Shown here piece by piece: positions 7,427 to 25,114 of a DNA stretch of 25,766 bases. The stretch lies in the IMG/VR virus record IMGVR_UViG_3300037963_001480, positions 9,988 through 35,753 of that record, one strand, 5' to 3'. The translations under genes and the position numbers were made by a program. The DNA is from a virus. Each line of letters opens with the position of its first letter. The first letter of the stretch is position 1. The notes under the pieces were generated by a model. It ran no database searches. It was not told the origin of the DNA and worked only from the letters and a program-made list of their open reading frames with translations.

Positions 7427-7814
7427 CCCACTTACGGTACTTGGGGTTGCTGTCATAGATTTTCACAGTCATAACTTTTATATCGTCAAAAGGAAATATC
7501 CAGAATCGCTTCTGGTCTATACCTACACAAACGTAAAAGTTAACCTCGTCTCTAGTGTACTGGCATTTGCTGTGCTTACCTTTGCCGAGTAAAAATTGAT
7601 AGTGCGGAGTATTGTTTTTGTAGTGATGCTGCTCCAAGGTGGCCTTAACTTGAATACATACTAAGTGTCCTTTCTTTACGCCAACAAGGTCATAAGACGC
7701 AGAATCAAAAGGTCGTGCTACGCTCCATCCATGCTCAAGCAATTTTTCAGCTACGAGTAATTCACCCCTCTGCCCTGTATTGCTTGCGCTTAGTTTAACT
7801 CCACCATTATCCAA
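7398..7814 (-). CDS. PD-(D/E)XK superfamily nuclease (Holliday-junction-resolvase-like)
   Basis: A 138-residue protein with the core PD-(D/E)XK signature: E18 in the first helix (GELLVAEKL), D42 in SYDLVGV, and Q55-V-K57 in CIQVKAT, the Q-x-K variant of (D/E)xK. Single-domain enzymes of this shape include phage and archaeal Holliday-junction resolvase-like nucleases and relatives of restriction endonucleases. As the last gene of the late operon it may resolve branched replicated DNA before packaging (inference). The only in-frame start giving the whole domain is a TTG at 7814, 5 bases after the stop of the 2026-aa gene, so expression probably depends on coupling. It lacks a DNA-recognition domain that would point to restriction. 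Confidence 0.75.
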   Translation of the reverse strand: MDNGGVKLSASNTGQRGELLVAEKLLEHGWSVARPFDSASYDLVGVKKGHLVCIQVKATLEQHHYKNNTPHYQFLLGKGKHSKCQYTRDEVNFYVCVGIDQKRFWIFPFDDIKVMTVKIYDSNPKYRKWENAWELLEA

Positions 7815-20092: not shown

Positions 20093-20217
20093 CTTGCTGT
20101 AACTGAACTTTTTGTAGGCTTACTACGAGCAGTAACCGCGCTAACAGAACTTTTAGTACGTGCTGTGACTGCACTTACTGTAGGTTTTGTTCTGGGAGTT
20201 ACTGCCGTAGTTGCCAT
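20089..20217 (-). CDS. 42-aa internal-repeat protein
   Basis: A 42-residue, very basic Thr/Ser/Val-rich protein made almost wholly of an imperfect repeat: AVTPRTKPTV, then SAVTARTKSSV, then SAVTARSKPTKSSV, then TAR. It is real in that it is locked between neighbours by a TAATG at its start and an ATGA at its stop onto the adaptor gene. AGAGGT lies about 9 bases upstream of the ATG. It has no membrane segment, no Cys and no known fold. It could bind nucleic acid or act as a linker or leader for the adaptor; I do not recognise it. Confidence 0.6.
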   Translation of the reverse strand: MATTAVTPRTKPTVSAVTARTKSSVSAVTARSKPTKSSVTAR

Positions 20218-20411
20218 TAGTTACCTCTTTCTAACTCATACTCAAGTCGTGCTATCGTTCTTATTGCTTGTCGTGTGAAGTCCGGTGCTTCCATCGCCGC
20301 TTTCGGAAACTGCGGGTGTGCTGTCAGTTCCTTGACGTTCTCGTACTTTGGAGTCGTCTGGCAACCCGTGGATACGCATAGCATTATCAATATGAGCAAG
20401 TTTATCCTCAT
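20217..20411 (-). CDS. small lipoprotein, nested in another frame (o-spanin-like)
   Basis: A 64-residue protein opening MRINLLILIMLCVSTGC, a lipoprotein-type signal peptide with the lipidation Cys at residue 17. The lipobox is imperfect (Ser at -3, Val at -4). The mature part contains TPKYENVKELTAHPQFP and a charged helix ending RLEYELERGN. Its frame lies almost entirely within the 92-aa gene read in another frame (20242-20520), the geometry of Rz/Rz1 spanin pairs, where the outer-membrane lipoprotein is nested in the inner-membrane partner. AAAGG precedes the ATG at short spacing. Longer in-frame starts exist but would disrupt the signal peptide. Spanin role is inferred; it lacks the proline-rich body common in Rz1. 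Confidence 0.7.
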   Translation of the reverse strand: MRINLLILIMLCVSTGCQTTPKYENVKELTAHPQFPKAAMEAPDFTRQAIRTIARLEYELERGN

Positions 20412-20520
20412 ACCTTTGCGATGCATTTGCTTCTCTGACTGCATTTGATACTTGCACGAAAAGCCTCTCCAAAGCAGGAAAGGCTTTGAACAACGCAAGT
20501 ATGGCCTTAATTAGACCCAC
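20242..20520 (-). CDS. i-spanin-like small protein, 92 aa, overlapping the lipoprotein
   Basis: A 92-residue protein starting at GTG 20520 (14-base overlap with the 57-aa gene). The N-terminus GLIKAILALFKAFPALERLF is hydrophobic but interrupted by Lys, Glu and Arg, so it looks amphipathic rather than a true membrane anchor. A charged helix (VREANASQRYEDKLAHID) follows, then a Ser/Thr/Asp-rich tail. It shares bases with the nested lipoprotein gene. By geometry it would be the inner-membrane partner (i-spanin), but the missing clear transmembrane helix is against this; it could instead be a membrane-surface lysis or accessory protein. Confidence 0.55.
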   Translation of the reverse strand: MGLIKAILALFKAFPALERLFVQVSNAVREANASQRYEDKLAHIDNAMRIHGLPDDSKVRERQGTDSTPAVSESGDGSTGLHTTSNKNDSTT

Positions 20521-20680
20521 TTGTGTCGCTCTTTACGCCCTTCCGTAGAAACACAGCAAGCAACGATGTAACAACAATGTTTATCATCGTACCCATTTCC
20601 ATGTCTCCAGAGAAGTACGCACCTACAGCCGCTAGAATACCACCGGCTGCCGTCATGTACGTCTTTTTACCACTTAACAT
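20507..20680 (-). CDS. small two-helix membrane protein, holin candidate, 57 aa
   Basis: A 57-residue protein. The first hydrophobic segment, YMTAAGGILAAVGAYFSGD, is followed by MINIVVTSLLAVFLRKGVK, with basic residues at both ends (N-terminal GKK, C-terminal RKGVK). This is a common layout of small phage holin-like proteins: a GKKTY opening, a Gly/Ala-rich helix, an acidic turn, then a second helix ending in a basic tail. It starts 1 base after the preceding stop and overlaps the 92-aa gene by 14 bases. Placed next to lipoprotein and spanin-like genes, it is a good holin candidate. Function not proven. Confidence 0.65.
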   Translation of the reverse strand: MLSGKKTYMTAAGGILAAVGAYFSGDMEMGTMINIVVTSLLAVFLRKGVKSDTSGSN

Positions 20681-20681
20681 A

Positions 20682-20813
20682 TTAGCGTCTGCGTTTTGCC
20701 ATAGCTGTTTTAGCAGCTTTTTTGGCAGTTCTTTTAGCTGTTGCGTTAGCAGCTCTACCCATTTTCGGTGGTCTACCCACTTTACTTCCGTATGTTCCCT
20801 TTCCGTGAGGCAT
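20682..20813 (-). CDS. very basic small protein, 43 aa
   Basis: A 43-residue protein opening MPHGKGTYGSKVGRPPKMGR and ending in an Ala/Lys/Arg-rich tail (AKKAAKTAMAKRRR). It is arginine- and lysine-rich with no acidic residues, like a protamine or histone-H1 tail, and the GRPPK element resembles an AT-hook. I chose the ATG at 20813: AGAAAG lies upstream, and it sits 4 bases after the preceding stop. Similar 'GKGTYGSKVGRPPK' small proteins are familiar to me from marine phage genomes, without an assigned function. DNA binding is inference. Confidence 0.65.
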   Translation of the reverse strand: MPHGKGTYGSKVGRPPKMGRAANATAKRTAKKAAKTAMAKRRR

Positions 20814-20817
20814 ATTA

Positions 20818-20976
20818 TTACTTTCTGTTTTTAGCGGTCTTTGCTGACCGCTTAAATGCTTTAGCAGTTGGCGCACCTTTAGTACCCGGTTTTCTCATTT
20901 TTTCACCGCTACCAGCCTTGATGCGATTTCGTTTAGCGTGGATGTTAGCGTATAGTCCTTTTTTCTTTGCTGGCAT
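20818..20976 (-). CDS. basic small phage protein, 52 aa
   Basis: A 52-residue, strongly basic protein: MPAKKKGLYANIHAKRNRIK, then AGSGEKMRKPGTKGAPTA, then a Lys-rich end (FKRSAKTAKNRK). The AGSGEKMRKPGxKGAPT segment is a recognisable conserved element of small phage proteins I know only as unknown function. It starts 3 bases after the preceding stop and is followed after 4 bases by the 43-aa gene. Its C-terminal KRSAKTAK resembles the KRTAKKAAK of that gene. A virion-internal DNA-binding or capsid-associated role is possible but not shown. Confidence 0.7.
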   Translation of the reverse strand: MPAKKKGLYANIHAKRNRIKAGSGEKMRKPGTKGAPTAKAFKRSAKTAKNRK

Positions 20977-20979
20977 AAA

Positions 20980-21291
20980 TCAACCTTTCTTCCACTTACT
21001 AGAACTAGATTTTGTTTTGCTGGGACTCCATTTAACCTTGTTCGCCCAATAGGCGGCGGACATAGGGCCGCGAGCTATGTTTTTCGAGTGACGGGATTTA
21101 AACGCTTCACGCTGTCCAGCCGTTTGATTTGTTTTAACTCCTTGCTGACCAAACCGAATAGTTTTAGTTTGGCCACCAGATTTGGCGACTACAACATGAG
21201 ATTTTGTAGGATGACTTGGAGTACGCTTAGGTTTATTATACCCGCTCACTCCGACTCTTGTTAATCTCGAATCTTTTTTACTTGTTGCCAT
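20980..21291 (-). CDS. basic conserved phage protein, 103 aa
   Basis: A 103-residue basic protein. The core is GVSGYNKPKRTPSHPTKSHV, then VVAKSGGQTKTIRFGQQGV, then REAFKSRHSKNIARGPMSAA and YWANKVKWSPSK, with a Ser/Lys-rich end. This order (NKPKRTPSHPTKSHVVVAK, then TIRFGQQG, then FKxRHxKNI, then SAAYWANKVKW) is a conserved phage family that I recall only as a domain of unknown function. Its ATG overlaps the 52-aa membrane protein by 14 bases. The high charge and His/Arg-rich centre suggest nucleic-acid contact (inference). Confidence 0.75.
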   Translation of the reverse strand: MATSKKDSRLTRVGVSGYNKPKRTPSHPTKSHVVVAKSGGQTKTIRFGQQGVKTNQTAGQREAFKSRHSKNIARGPMSAAYWANKVKWSPSKTKSSSSKWKKG

Positions 21292-21436
21292 TCTTCAAAA
21301 GCTGTCGTATCTTCAAACTTATGTAAACTAAACTTGCAACAGATATAGCCACCTTGAGAACAAGGTCTATCTCAACCATCCAGTTACCCAAACCTGTAGC
21401 ACTAGCGATTGCAACTTTAAGATCATCCAAATTCAT
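21278..21436 (-). CDS. small single-helix membrane protein, holin candidate, 52 aa
   Basis: A 52-residue protein with an amphipathic N-terminus (LDDLKVAIASATGLGNWM) and one strong membrane segment, LVLKVAISVASLVYISL, ending in a basic tail (KIRQLLKNGNK). One transmembrane helix with a short acidic N-terminus and positive C-terminus is compatible with a small holin or pinholin-like protein. It is tightly coupled to the lipoprotein gene (ATGA). The window therefore has two holin candidates, and I cannot tell which forms the lesion; the other could be an antiholin. Confidence 0.6.
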   Translation of the reverse strand: MNLDDLKVAIASATGLGNWMVEIDLVLKVAISVASLVYISLKIRQLLKNGNK

Positions 21437-21585
21437 TCACTCTTTTCGCCTTGGTATTCTATGTCAAAGAAAGGTGTGTCTACTTCCAAGGAACCCGGCA
21501 GCGACTTACAGCCACTCGCCAACACGACGATAAGTACCAATGCTCCTATAAAAATTCCTAATGTTATTTTATCAGTCCTGTCCAT
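21433..21585 (-). CDS. small lipoprotein, 50 aa
   Basis: A 50-residue protein with a signal-anchor (TLGIFIGALVLIVV) running into LASGC, with Cys at residue 26 followed by a short mature part (KSLPGSLEVDTPFFDIEYQG). The -1 Gly and Leu at -4 fit bacterial lipoprotein processing, with Ala at the -3 position. It overlaps the MscS-like gene by 14 bases and the membrane protein gene by 4. A second lipoprotein (20217-20411) lies about 1 kb downstream. It could be an outer-membrane spanin component or a superinfection-exclusion lipoprotein; the sequence does not decide. Confidence 0.65.
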   Translation of the reverse strand: MDRTDKITLGIFIGALVLIVVLASGCKSLPGSLEVDTPFFDIEYQGEKSE

Positions 21586-21967
21586 CTTTTACCAGCTCCA
21601 CTTTCATTACACCGCCTTCGTCACCTTTCGGCAAGTAAGATTCGCCGCCATTAACAGGTAGCCTTTTCTCTACAACAAGAGCCTTTAACTGCTCATTCGG
21701 CACGATCATTTTGGTCTGCCTGTCTGTCATAAAGAATGTAGTAGACGTTAAGCCAAGTCGTATAACCCGTGCTTGTCGTCCGCTAATGTAAAGTATCTCA
21801 TCGTTTTCAAAGTCGCTGCCCCAGTAGATTAGCAAGCCTTGGGCGAAGTTAAACAAGATGTCTTTGAACAGCAGCGCACAGAACGCAGCAATAAGCAACC
21901 AGCCATAATGACCGATCGCTTGTTCTGCTACGCGCTCAAGTGCGGCATGATCTAGGACGTTTGTCAT
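21572..21967 (-). CDS. MscS-like mini-protein (one membrane helix plus beta domain)
   Basis: A 131-residue protein. One hydrophobic helix at about 22-42 (WLLIAAFCALLFKDILF) is followed by FAQGLLIYW, an acidic turn F53-E57, strand ILYISGRQARVIRLG, LTSTTFFMTDRQ and V89-P90-N91. This mirrors the MscS pore-helix/beta-domain core: amphipathic TM3, the 'D/E-x-V' strand, G-x-V-x-x-I, the S/T-T pair, the D in the turn and the IPN motif. It lacks TM1-TM2 and the C-terminal alpha/beta domain, so it is far shorter than bacterial MscS. It is linked by ATGA to the 101-aa gene and overlaps the lipoprotein gene. A pore, an osmotic modulator or a lysis factor are possible. Family similarity is from motif pattern. 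Confidence 0.65.
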   Translation of the reverse strand: MTNVLDHAALERVAEQAIGHYGWLLIAAFCALLFKDILFNFAQGLLIYWGSDFENDEILYISGRQARVIRLGLTSTTFFMTDRQTKMIVPNEQLKALVVEKRLPVNGGESYLPKGDEGGVMKVELVKDGQD

Positions 21968-22269
21968 TCACCGCTTTCAGCAGGTGCTTCTTCTACTGGC
22001 GCACGTTCCAAGCCAAGCTGTGCAAGTGCTAGGTCGCCAACATAGGTCGCATCGTCTACGTCTGAACCCCAGTTGTTCCACGCATCGCCGGTCACATTTA
22101 GCAGACCAGAGTAGATCGGGTTTTCGCCCCACACTTCTTCGCCGTCTACCGTCACCTTCCCAAATGCGACTACGCTAAACTGCATTCCAAACTCCTGCGC
22201 GGAGTTGAGTTTTACCGCAACCTTGCTGGCGTTTAGTTCCGTTGTGGGTACTGTGTTTATTTCAATCAT
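21964..22269 (-). CDS. small structural/accessory protein after the tail fibre, 101 aa
   Basis: A 101-residue acidic protein: MIEINTVPTTELNASKVAVK, then FGMQFSVVAFGKVTVDGEEV, then a Trp/Asp-rich segment (DAWNNWGSDVDDATYVGDLA) and an Ala/Glu-rich tail. The ATG at 22269 has AGAGGAAT upstream; a longer start would overlap the whole 85-aa gene in another frame, so I reject it. It sits directly after the 85-aa gene and is coupled by ATGA to the MscS-like gene. I know such short proteins next to fibre genes in phages but cannot assign a role. Confidence 0.6.
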   Translation of the reverse strand: MIEINTVPTTELNASKVAVKLNSAQEFGMQFSVVAFGKVTVDGEEVWGENPIYSGLLNVTGDAWNNWGSDVDDATYVGDLALAQLGLERAPVEEAPAESGE

Positions 22270-22270
22270 T

Positions 22271-22528
22271 TTATTCCTCTGTTGATTCTTCTGCCGGTGC
22301 ATTCGCTTCAGCATACGCCGCCACAACAGCATCCGTTTGCACCGCCGCACAAATCGCTTTGGTAACGTCTGCCTCGGCTGAATAGTCATCGCCGGGAGTG
22401 ATTGGCTTGCGGTGATTGTTGCTTCCAACAACTGCACCGTCATCGGTGACGGTTGTGACTGTTTCCACGAAAACGATGCCGTTCGCCTCGATGTCGTGCC
22501 TTAATGTTTCTGATTTTTTTAATGCCAT
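22271..22528 (-). CDS. small accessory protein after the tail fibre, 85 aa
   Basis: An 85-residue acidic protein with a strand EANGIVFVETVTTVTDDGAV, a His/Arg/Lys patch (SNNHRKPITPGDDYS) and an Ala/Glu-rich C-terminus. It has no membrane segment. It begins 12 bases after the fibre stop and ends 1 base before the start of the 101-aa gene. Its base and codon use is more GC-rich than the window average, like the 3' half of the fibre, which suggests that the two entered together. Family and function unknown; a fibre assembly helper is a guess by position. Confidence 0.6.
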   Translation of the reverse strand: MALKKSETLRHDIEANGIVFVETVTTVTDDGAVVGSNNHRKPITPGDDYSAEADVTKAICAAVQTDAVVAAYAEANAPAEESTEE

Positions 22529-22540
22529 TTGATGTCTAAA

Positions 22541-25114
22541 TTATGCAATTTCTAAAACGCCGCACGCAGAAAACTCAAGTGCACCGCTCGTCCAGTTTGT
22601 TGCCGATTGTGTGCCGTATAATGTTACTGCCGATGCGTCATTAACCTGCCAGCGGTATGGACTTGTATTAAACGAGTTGCCGTTAAATATGACGTAACCA
22701 GCATTTAAAAACTGATATGGTGAGTCTTGGACAAAACTAAAAGGCAAAGCACCGATTTTCCACGCACTAACTCCGGTGGTTGTTGGAGAAGTGGTATGGT
22801 AATAGTACAGAATTACATAACACATTTTCCCAACGCGCACATAACGGCCAATAGCTGAGTTTGGTGATGAAAGCGTTGTCGAAAAATCGTCTTTGCTGAG
22901 AGTCGGGGTGAATGTCCCCTCTTTGTAATTTGATAAAGTTGTGTCACCGAGGTTGATGCCACCGCTGAACGTGCATAAGCCGGTATCGTCTATTGTCAAA
23001 CGAGTCGTTGCATCTGCGCCCGCCGTTTGCGTTTGAAACTCTAACTTGGACGAAGTCTTTGTGCCCGCTTCTGTTGCAATAATCTTCGCGAGAGTGCTGT
23101 CGGTGTCAGTATTTCCAAACCGAACTGCGCCAAGCGTCCCGTTATTGTCGCCGGTTGTGCGAGACAAAACAAGTGTTCCCCCGCCCGCTTTGTTAACGTG
23201 CAAATCAGCAATCGCGCCAGAAGCTGCGTTAGGCGTATCACCTACGACAACCACGCCGCTGTTGTTTATGGTGAGAACCTCTGTCCCGGTATCCGAGTTG
23301 TTGTGAGACGAAAAACGCAGCGTTGGCGTGCCATCACTTCCTGTGCGGTGTGCGCTAATTAGATACCCGTATTTGTCTACGGTGCTGGTTGATAAAGCCA
23401 AACTAGAAACTCCGGTGTTGTTCGTCGTGCCGGATGATGCGTTAGCTGGCAGCGCTTTAATTGCCGCACCCGAAAACGGTGTTCCGCTGGTGCTTTGCTG
23501 GTTTTTGCCGACTAGCAAACCTCCACTCGCGTCAATATCACCATCCGCAACGGTCGCCGCGCTTGTGCCGATTCGTGCTGCCGTAGCATTCAACTGAACC
23601 ACCGGCTGCACCTGCTTTACGCCGCTTGCGCTTGTCGTGCCATCCGCTGCGCCGCTACGGTCTTGAACGGTAAGTGATTGCGTTGGATTTGCGGAAAGTT
23701 CGTAGTCGGAGACGCAGCCAACGGCAACAATGCTGACGTTATCGAGCCAAAAACTTTCAGCAGCATCCAGACCAGCAAGCAGAAATTTGGGGGCGCTGCC
23801 AAAGCCGCCTTCAAGCACGACGCTATAATTGGCAAAACTTGTTGTCAGCGTTACCGACTCATTGAGCGCGGTGTTTGTTGTGTCGTCGTTGTTCTGAAAA
23901 TTAAAATACAGTTTGCTGCCGCCGGTTACAGCTTTAGCGTCAAAACTCAATCTATACCGTTTGTTGTTTTCAGTCGCGCCGCCGGTGTTGAAATAGTCTT
24001 TCCCGAGGAATGACCTTTGCGCGAAACTTGCGAGATTGTTTGTTCCGCCACCAAACGCTGCCGTCTGTGGGATTTTCAGCGCACCAGAATCGTTTACGGC
24101 TGTAATTGCAACCGCTCCCCAGTTGCCAACTCCGCTTGCGAAAGTGCGGTTTGCGGCATCGCCAATCTTCTCGGTCTGACTTGCATACTGGTCAGCAAAA
24201 TCAACGTCAGCACGTTCGTATGCTGTCTGCACCTCTGCGCTGCTGAGTGCTTTGTTGTAGAAGCGAGTTCGATATAGTGTGCCTTTGAACGGGTTATTAC
24301 ATATTACCAAGTCGGTGCAATTATTTAACCCGTGTGTCGCAGAGATTGTTGCCGTGCCTACTCGGTTTCCATTGTCATAAAGTGTCGCCGCCGTACCATC
24401 TACCGTCATAACTAGATGGTGAACTTTTAGGTCGTCTAAAACTTTTACTCCAAAATTAGTCCAACTGGCATTGTCATAAATACCTAGATTATAACTTTGA
24501 CTGCTTGTAGAACCAAAAACGAATCTTCCACCGTTGCTAAAATCAATTAGATAAGGGTCTGATGTTCCAAATTCGTCGGCTTTAATTACAAGCTCAAAGC
24601 TGAACTTGTTTTGCCCACCATACGCAGCACCCTCATTATCAGCGACTGCCGCGCCGGTTAAGCCTAATGTTGAAACAATGGCTGTCGCTCCGGCTGCTGC
24701 TGTTGATGTTAAAAGGTATTCCCCTCCACCGCTAAAAGTTAAAATTGTTCCTGAAGGTATTTCCGCCTTTAAAGCATCAACTGTCATACTGTTGACACCA
24801 ATAGAGTAGCCGCCTCCATTGTTGATATATGCAGCAAATGTTGACAGGTCTGGCGGTGAAGCAACGTCTATATTTCCTGTACCATCAAAATGCAGACCCT
24901 CGCCGTCACTCTGAACACCTGCTACAACTGGCTTACCATCAACAGTTAAATCTAACTTATTGTCAGCACCTTCTGTAATTTTTATAACGCTACTTCCAGT
25001 AGAAGCAGCCCATTCCATAACATCAGAAGATGCACCATCCGACTTAACAGTCGGTTCGTTCTCGTAAGAGACACCTGTTGTATGAATTGAACTTTGTTGA
25101 GTAATCCTAGCCAT
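22541..25114 (-). CDS. tail fibre with lectin-like domains, 857 aa
   Basis: An 857-residue fibre. After an N-terminal Ser/Thr-rich part there is an INNxxGY module (about 94-165). A concanavalin/LamG-type domain follows (about 168-305: FSFELVIKADEF, HHLVMTVDGTAATLYDNGNR, TRFYNKALSSAEV). Next is a carbohydrate-binding-type beta-sandwich (about 320-465, ending SFWLDNVSIVAVG). A long beta-helix-like stretch follows, with repeated short elements such as RLTIDDTGLCTFSGG and LTINNSGVVVVGD. The C-terminus (GTFTPTLS, YVRVGKMCYV) is a tail typical of fibre tips that meet receptors. No catalytic hydrolase motif is seen, so binding rather than depolymerisation is likely. The downstream half is GC-rich compared with the upstream half, hinting at recombination. 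Confidence 0.85.
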   Translation of the reverse strand: MARITQQSSIHTTGVSYENEPTVKSDGASSDVMEWAASTGSSVIKITEGADNKLDLTVDGKPVVAGVQSDGEGLHFDGTGNIDVASPPDLSTFAAYINNGGGYSIGVNSMTVDALKAEIPSGTILTFSGGGEYLLTSTAAAGATAIVSTLGLTGAAVADNEGAAYGGQNKFSFELVIKADEFGTSDPYLIDFSNGGRFVFGSTSSQSYNLGIYDNASWTNFGVKVLDDLKVHHLVMTVDGTAATLYDNGNRVGTATISATHGLNNCTDLVICNNPFKGTLYRTRFYNKALSSAEVQTAYERADVDFADQYASQTEKIGDAANRTFASGVGNWGAVAITAVNDSGALKIPQTAAFGGGTNNLASFAQRSFLGKDYFNTGGATENNKRYRLSFDAKAVTGGSKLYFNFQNNDDTTNTALNESVTLTTSFANYSVVLEGGFGSAPKFLLAGLDAAESFWLDNVSIVAVGCVSDYELSANPTQSLTVQDRSGAADGTTSASGVKQVQPVVQLNATAARIGTSAATVADGDIDASGGLLVGKNQQSTSGTPFSGAAIKALPANASSGTTNNTGVSSLALSTSTVDKYGYLISAHRTGSDGTPTLRFSSHNNSDTGTEVLTINNSGVVVVGDTPNAASGAIADLHVNKAGGGTLVLSRTTGDNNGTLGAVRFGNTDTDSTLAKIIATEAGTKTSSKLEFQTQTAGADATTRLTIDDTGLCTFSGGINLGDTTLSNYKEGTFTPTLSKDDFSTTLSSPNSAIGRYVRVGKMCYVILYYYHTTSPTTTGVSAWKIGALPFSFVQDSPYQFLNAGYVIFNGNSFNTSPYRWQVNDASAVTLYGTQSATNWTSGALEFSACGVLEIA
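24620..24835 (-). repeat. INNxxGY module, copy in tail fibre
   Basis: Residues about 94-165 of the fibre: YINNGGGYSIGVNSMTVDAL, then IPSGTILTFSGGGEYLLTS and AAVADNEG. It matches the module found twice in the 793-aa tubular protein and lies just before the LamG-type domain. Confidence 0.65.

Follow-up and report, generated by a model that had tools for sequence, protein, structure and literature searches.

A reduced, phage-encoded MscS-family protein and its lipoprotein partner in uncultured marine phages

Gene content of the locus

The window analyzed here is a 25,766-nucleotide stretch of viral DNA (bases 9988-35753 of the 35.7-kb IMG/VR virus record IMGVR_UViG_3300037963_001480). Replication genes on the plus strand (Sak4-like, DNA polymerase, and primase/helicase-type) occupy its first 7 kb as one block; beyond about 7.4 kb, a single long minus-strand block makes up most of the window and includes tail-adaptor (SU10_adaptor, E = 2.8 × 10−9) and LamG fiber-like genes. 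Within this second block lies a gene for a 131-aa protein that we call mini-MscS (Table 1). A first-pass annotation of the sequence had placed an MscS-like mini channel gene here and was silent on the strand; the open reading frame is present and is coded on the minus strand, the plus-strand frame over the same bases being full of stops. The motifs named in that annotation are all found in the protein (LIYWG, GRQARVIRLG, STT, TDR, and VPN). The open reading frame is not due to chance, because pN/pS between the gene in the window and its relatives is 0.05-0.2 and 23 aligned positions are invariant in the family alignment (87 sequences). Judged from these alignments, purifying selection on the gene is strong.

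Table 1. Features in and around the mini-MscS cassette, with coordinates in the window
Feature	Coordinates	Strand	Description	Evidence or remarks
Fiber-like protein	22541..25114	-	857 aa, LamG domain	PF13385, E = 8.9 × 10−14
Upstream small gene	21964..22269	-	Probable 101-aa form of the 22443..21964 ORF	4-nt overlap with mini-MscS
Mini-MscS	21572..21967	-	131 aa: one TM helix, MscS beta domain, conserved tail	ORF, PF00924, model, folds
Kinked TM3-like helix	21818..21949	-	Residues 7-33 and 35-50; K35-D36 at kink; N40 and G44 conserved	AlphaFold2 model, column conservation
MscS beta domain	21656..21817	-	Residues 51-104; four strands and a short helix	PF00924 over residues 36-94; strands 58-61, 64-71, 75-80, and 85-90 in model
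Family-specific tail	21575..21655	-	NGGxxYLPKG ... KVEVV; low confidence in model	Alignment, model, column conservation
Partner lipoprotein	21433..21585	-	50 aa; lipobox ASGC, then CKSLPGSLEVDTPFFDIEYQGEKSE	14-nt overlap with mini-MscS stop
One-TM protein (TM52)	21278..21436	-	52 aa; follows the lipoprotein	Homologous in mini-MscS and slot-swapped phages
Basic protein	20980..21291	-	103 aa	phrog_7595 (unknown function)
Basic protein	20818..20976	-	52 aa	phrog_16028 (unknown function)
Basic ORF	20682..20876	-	64 aa	Shorter 44-aa form in L014
Membrane protein (TM57)	20507..20680	-	57 aa	Weak holin-like match, phrog_3428, E = 0.034; homologs in relatives
Protein with amphipathic N-terminus	20242..20520	-	92 aa	Possible partner of embedded lipoprotein
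Embedded lipoprotein gene	20217..20498	-	Other frame of the 92-aa gene	Weak Rz-like spanin match, phrog_456, E = 0.0088

Read 5' to 3' on the minus strand, the LamG fiber-like gene is followed by an 85-aa phrog_6228 gene, a gene for a protein of ~101 aa, mini-MscS, and the lipoprotein gene; after these come the one-TM gene, three small basic genes, the 57-aa membrane protein gene, the 92-aa gene with its embedded lipoprotein gene, and the adaptor. The upstream ORF overlaps mini-MscS by 4 nt, mini-MscS overlaps the lipoprotein gene by 14 nt, and the lipoprotein gene overlaps the next small TM gene by 4 nt. The start/stop overlaps of the first-pass annotation are thus real, including that with the lipoprotein, but the upstream partner is a small protein and not the fiber, which lies two genes away. 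This small upstream gene is swapped for other small genes in relatives.

Calling the cassette lysis-type draws on weak evidence, namely holin- and spanin-like PHROG matches at E values of 0.009-0.03. Mini-MscS itself matched no holin family of PHROG, Pfam, or NCBIfam, and other holin candidates are present in the same cassette. Seven window-type records (G000-G006), possibly incomplete, contained no endolysin of the Amidase_2, Phage_lysozyme, SLT, or M15_4 families. At 20217-20520 (minus strand), a lipoprotein gene lies inside the 92-aa gene, a spanin-like layout that is kept in relatives. Separately, in a second phage type the vicinity of mini-MscS repeatedly holds a TM protein that is KEK-rich at its C-terminus (L112:7944-8183, L187 at about 7508-7747, and L114:6372-6653); it looks i-spanin-like by eye and in L187 is apparently lipidated.

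Fold and family membership

PF00924 (MS_channel_2nd, the beta domain) matched the window protein at E = 7.2 × 10−5 and 23.3 bits (gathering cut-off 20.2), as well as all 16 of the 16 diverse members of the family that we scanned (best E = 2.7 × 10−7). Sequence searches of the PDB with phmmer and hmmsearch gave weak matches, to MscS-family channels only. We built an AlphaFold2 model from an 87-sequence alignment, a shallow 20-sequence alignment having given a poor model (pLDDT 49.8). The model is of moderate confidence (pLDDT 67.6, pTM 0.40; pLDDT 73-79 in blocks 21-50) and predicts two helical stretches with a break at residue 34, beside K35-D36, which corresponds to a pore-lining TM3 with the TM3a/TM3b kink.

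In a Foldseek search of this model against the PDB, ranks 1-48 were all members of the MscS family (rank 1: E = 3.9 × 10−4, probability 1.00), and a VIA alignment with AtMSL10 (Z = 8.5, 90 residues, 3.2 Å) spanned residues 12-104 of mini-MscS and thus ran through TM3. Query-normalized TM-scores to single MscS-family chains were modest (0.33-0.49). Unrelated SH3-like barrels (tudor, CarD, and FeoA) also aligned, with Z scores of 6-7.4, and an identity with these folds was rejected, their matches being confined to residues ~48-109, the generic beta-barrel part. Since such barrels match the beta part too, the MscS identity rests on Pfam and on the alignment through TM3. The reading of the protein as MscS TM3 plus beta domain, put forward in the first-pass annotation, is borne out by the agreement of PF00924, Foldseek, and the VIA alignment, and the resemblance is not merely SH3-like.

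What is missing was also called correctly. The 131 aa contain a single hydrophobic segment preceded by ~20 aa, so that the TM1-TM2 tension sensor is absent, and the ~27 residues after the beta domain lack predicted secondary structure, so that there is no C-terminal alpha/beta vestibule (cage). With TM3 and the beta domain present and TM1-TM2 and the vestibule lacking, mini-MscS is not a full member of the MscS channels; it is almost certainly a phage-specific, reduced subunit of the MscS family.

The mean net charge across the family is -2.7 before the TM segment and +2.7 after it, which predicts an N-out/C-in topology with a cytoplasmic beta domain, as in MscS. TM3a of E. coli MscS has a Gly/Ala packing pattern. 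This pattern is missing from TM3a in the family alignment columns of mini-MscS, which may therefore not pack as the same pore.

Distribution

To survey the family, we scanned IMG/VR with the single protein, which gave 52 loci, and with profiles, which gave 228 and 232. Conservation in other phages, on which the first-pass annotation had staked its proposal, is therefore found in ~230 IMG/VR relatives. Mini-MscS proteins of the window type (64-100% identity) are on contigs mostly up to about 47 kb (40-47 kb phages), and other types, at about 50-58% identity, have a different gene neighborhood and contigs of up to 144 and 170 kb; whether these phage types are taxonomically distinct is judged from contig size and gene neighborhood. 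Mini-MscS is a conserved module of many uncultured marine phages. Among the 50,697 isolate phage records of INPHARED, tblastn with three diverse queries gave no credible match, and searches with the tail and polymerase proteins of the window phage found no close isolate phage. Across ~85,000 species genomes, one mini-MscS match was found, on a 77-kb contig of a Flavobacteriales metagenome-assembled genome. The other matches to the family profile in 296 Flavobacteriales genomes numbered four; they were weak (E values of 10−7 to 10−5) and lay in open frames of 295-830 aa.

A conserved lipoprotein partner

The most informative facts are absent from the first reading of the sequence: mini-MscS has a dedicated, homologous lipoprotein partner, and its slot can be taken by a TM/coiled-coil protein. 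We detected the lipoproteins by motif search together with HMMs; a crude lipobox regular expression missed real cases. Three HMM types were used, A (CKSLPG.LEVDTPFFDIEY), B (NLKEVD.S.TG.E.EYY ... LMPM), and C (GRLEKVRFSVPAFFQVEMDYY ... LMEM). A lipoprotein of these types adjoins mini-MscS in 157 of 193 loci, a count that includes many overlapping fetches of one contig; by distinct mini-MscS genes (n = 135), about 104 have a lipoprotein neighbor. Five more loci have the lipoprotein at a distance of 0.2-1.7 kb, and the HMMs had no match elsewhere in the 193 loci.

The two genes usually overlap by 4-19 nt. Type B lipoproteins occur in both phage types and are strongly similar (phmmer E = 10−17 on the mature parts), and profile comparison ties type B to types C and A. 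The gene order is usually mini-MscS followed by lipoprotein, with the reverse order in the L114/L127/L129 group, and the L048 and L141 types have mini-MscS without a lipoprotein partner. Two lipoprotein queries found nothing credible in INPHARED (tblastn).

An alternative protein in the mini-MscS slot

Scanning IMG/VR with the lipoprotein gave 80 loci, of which 58 have mini-MscS, nearly always directly adjoining. At 17 loci (L217-L225, L245-L251, and L257-L258 hold these), the mini-MscS position, overlapping and directly upstream of the lipoprotein, is occupied by an unrelated 97-102-aa protein with one N-terminal TM segment and a coiled-coil-like C-terminal part; most of these proteins match phrog_18771 (unknown function). 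The remaining loci are L239, with another small gene in place, and four (L274-L277) in which a type C lipoprotein stands alone among repeated structural-type genes, with neither mini-MscS nor the coiled-coil protein.

Mini-MscS and the coiled-coil protein occurred together in no locus examined; as the loci are short, this is an exclusion within the neighborhood and not necessarily genome-wide. Downstream, phages with mini-MscS and phages with the coiled-coil protein have homologous genes (TM52, E = 10−14 to 10−17; TM57, 10−5 to 10−15), and the 92-aa protein and its embedded lipoprotein have counterparts in the slot-swapped L217 and L218 (10−16 to 10−21); a single cassette thus exists in two versions that differ in their first gene. 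The most economical interpretation is that the two proteins replace or displace each other functionally within the module. Each spans the membrane once and, by its charge, computed for mini-MscS and judged by eye for the coiled-coil protein, looks N-out with a cytoplasmic, probably oligomerizing domain.

We also considered the slot-swap protein as a BhlA/UviB or YvrJ holin, which was unsupported: its matches were to phrog_18771 and to the holin family phrog_4898 (E = 0.04-0.08), with no significant holin match. At L296:3495-3842 in the phage Melnitz-3 (MZ577098), immediately ahead of csgF-csgG, is a distant relative (30% identity over 67 aa). A gene that always precedes the curli genes is described as a "histidine kinase" by the authors of a pelagiphage study (PMC9599517); it may or may not correspond to this relative. 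If the relation to Melnitz is real, a small inner-membrane protein of the slot-swap kind would be repeatedly paired with envelope lipoproteins; equally, it may be a chance likeness of TM and coiled-coil segments.

Possible roles of the module

From a conserved gene with a kinked TM3-like helix and a beta domain, and from its lipoprotein partner in a structural-gene block, we infer a ring-shaped oligomer that forms a pore, is gated by the lipoprotein, acts late in infection, and affects lysis. In the host inner membrane, several copies of mini-MscS would come together, the expected number being seven as in MscS and MscS2; their acidic N-termini would face the periplasm, and the ring of beta domains the cytoplasm. 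The lipoprotein, anchored on the periplasmic side, would touch either the pore mouth or the short N-terminal segment in the periplasm, and might replace or control the missing tension-sensing TM1-TM2. Late in infection, the complex would open a small hole through which the ion gradient is dissipated or solutes are released, tuning the timing and manner of cell lysis in a pinholin-like or valve-like way. As the link to lysis is circumstantial (weak holin- and spanin-like neighbors, and no endolysin of the four families in the seven records), we regard this gated pore that tunes depolarization or lysis as a tentative reading of the whole mechanism. The rival roles are less supported.

Some of these keep the pair on the side of the host envelope. 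Known exclusion factors include small membrane proteins and lipoproteins, for example the Ltp lipoproteins (PMC3952083), and the pair could act in superinfection exclusion or envelope immunity by stopping the DNA entry of competing phages. We think this unlikely: the neighbors' PHROG matches to exclusion families (E = 0.03-0.2) are at chance level, PADLOC matched 0 defense families, and the gene sits in the structural block of the window. That location, together with the retained MscS pore helix and beta domain, would suit a tension-gated channel formed by the pair that prevents premature bursting while virions mature, in keeping with the description of MscS channels as osmotic safety valves in PMC11262690. 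Such a valve is distinctly unlikely given the missing TM1-TM2 paddle and the relatives that fill the slot with a non-MscS coiled-coil protein, which would sense tension differently. The retained oligomerizing TM3 and beta parts might instead let mini-MscS join host MscS assemblies as a dominant-negative subunit, locking or opening them. The family profile barely recognizes cellular MscS, as seen in the four weak matches among the genomes of the candidate host order (Flavobacteriales), and neither the conserved lipoprotein nor the slot swap is accounted for, making this role improbable.

Two further roles would make the pair part of envelope disruption or of the virion. Adjoining genes for an inner-membrane protein and a lipoprotein resemble two-component spanins (PMC6139136), and here such genes are adjacent and overlap in most loci; the two might then form an unusual envelope-disrupting pair, with mini-MscS as its subunit in the inner membrane and the lipoprotein as that in the outer membrane. 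The N-in topology and periplasmic coiled coil of such spanins are not seen, however: charge is predicted to place the beta domain in the cytoplasm, opposite to i-spanins, and the model has no coiled coil. No more than about 20-45 aa are predicted to lie in the periplasm at the N-terminus, the mature lipoprotein can be as short as 25 aa, and the cassette has a separate spanin-like embedded lipoprotein gene, all of which makes a spanin very improbable. The position between fiber-like and adaptor genes in the structural block could also point to a virion or DNA-entry component, packaged or inserted at infection as an inner-membrane conduit; this is the least probable of the roles, as a packaged protein would hardly be expected to carry a lipoprotein signal peptide and the neighbors are small membrane proteins.

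Relation to known channels and significance

Mini-MscS aligns throughout its TM3-type kinked helix and beta domain with MscS-family channels (E. coli MscS, MscK, and YnaI; plant MSL1 and MSL10), but differs from them in lacking the TM1-TM2 paddle and the C-terminal vestibule, in being phage-encoded, and in having a lipoprotein partner. Another parallel is MscS2 of the microsporidian Nematocida displodere, described as having TMH3 and the beta domain only, crossing the membrane once, and forming heptamers (PMC11262690). By this description mini-MscS keeps the same two parts, and the MscS2 structure shows that TMH3 and the beta domain alone can still form a heptamer. MscS2, unlike mini-MscS, comes from a eukaryotic parasite and has a possible signal peptide, and no lipoprotein partner is mentioned in that description.

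Virus-encoded mechanosensitive channels have been described in large eukaryotic DNA viruses, such as a 261-aa MscS-like protein of an Aureococcus virus (PMC6163359). Mini-MscS is likewise a viral MscS-like gene, but with one TM segment and in a phage, whereas the Aureococcus virus protein has three predicted TM segments and belongs to a virus of a eukaryotic host. Our search of BFVD with the model found this protein and three unnamed viral proteins of 104-138 aa, which matched better. As another bacterial pore repurposed by marine phages, CsgG/CsgF of Melnitz and pelagiphages (PMC9004378, PMC9599517) is comparable, and the authors suggest a pinholin or gated secretin for the CsgG pore of the OM43 phage Melnitz (PMC9004378). 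It differs in being an outer-membrane pore of unrelated fold, and its tie to our module is the distant relative of the slot-swap protein, with 30% identity across a 67-residue stretch of TM and coiled coil.

MscS-like genes in viruses (PMC6163359) and TM3-plus-beta MscS in microsporidia are thus already known. Our literature searches for phage MscS found no report of phage MscS in lysis, nor of a phage mini-MscS family with a lipoprotein partner and slot swap. We offer, as a rather doubtful proposal, that in marine phages a bacterial mechanosensitive channel has become an envelope device of two parts: a minimal TM3-plus-beta pore gated by a dedicated lipoprotein and interchangeable with a TM/coiled-coil protein in the same gene slot. 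If true, such pores would constitute a new class, distinct from every described holin, that times lysis or controls the envelope. The family is a widespread, virus-only case of MscS pared down to its pore helix and beta domain, similar in this to microsporidian MscS2, with a conserved lipoprotein at its side. It makes testable what the minimum MscS for a gated pore is and whether repurposed channels control lysis or the envelope in uncultured marine phages, and the slot swap provides a comparative test of the module's job.
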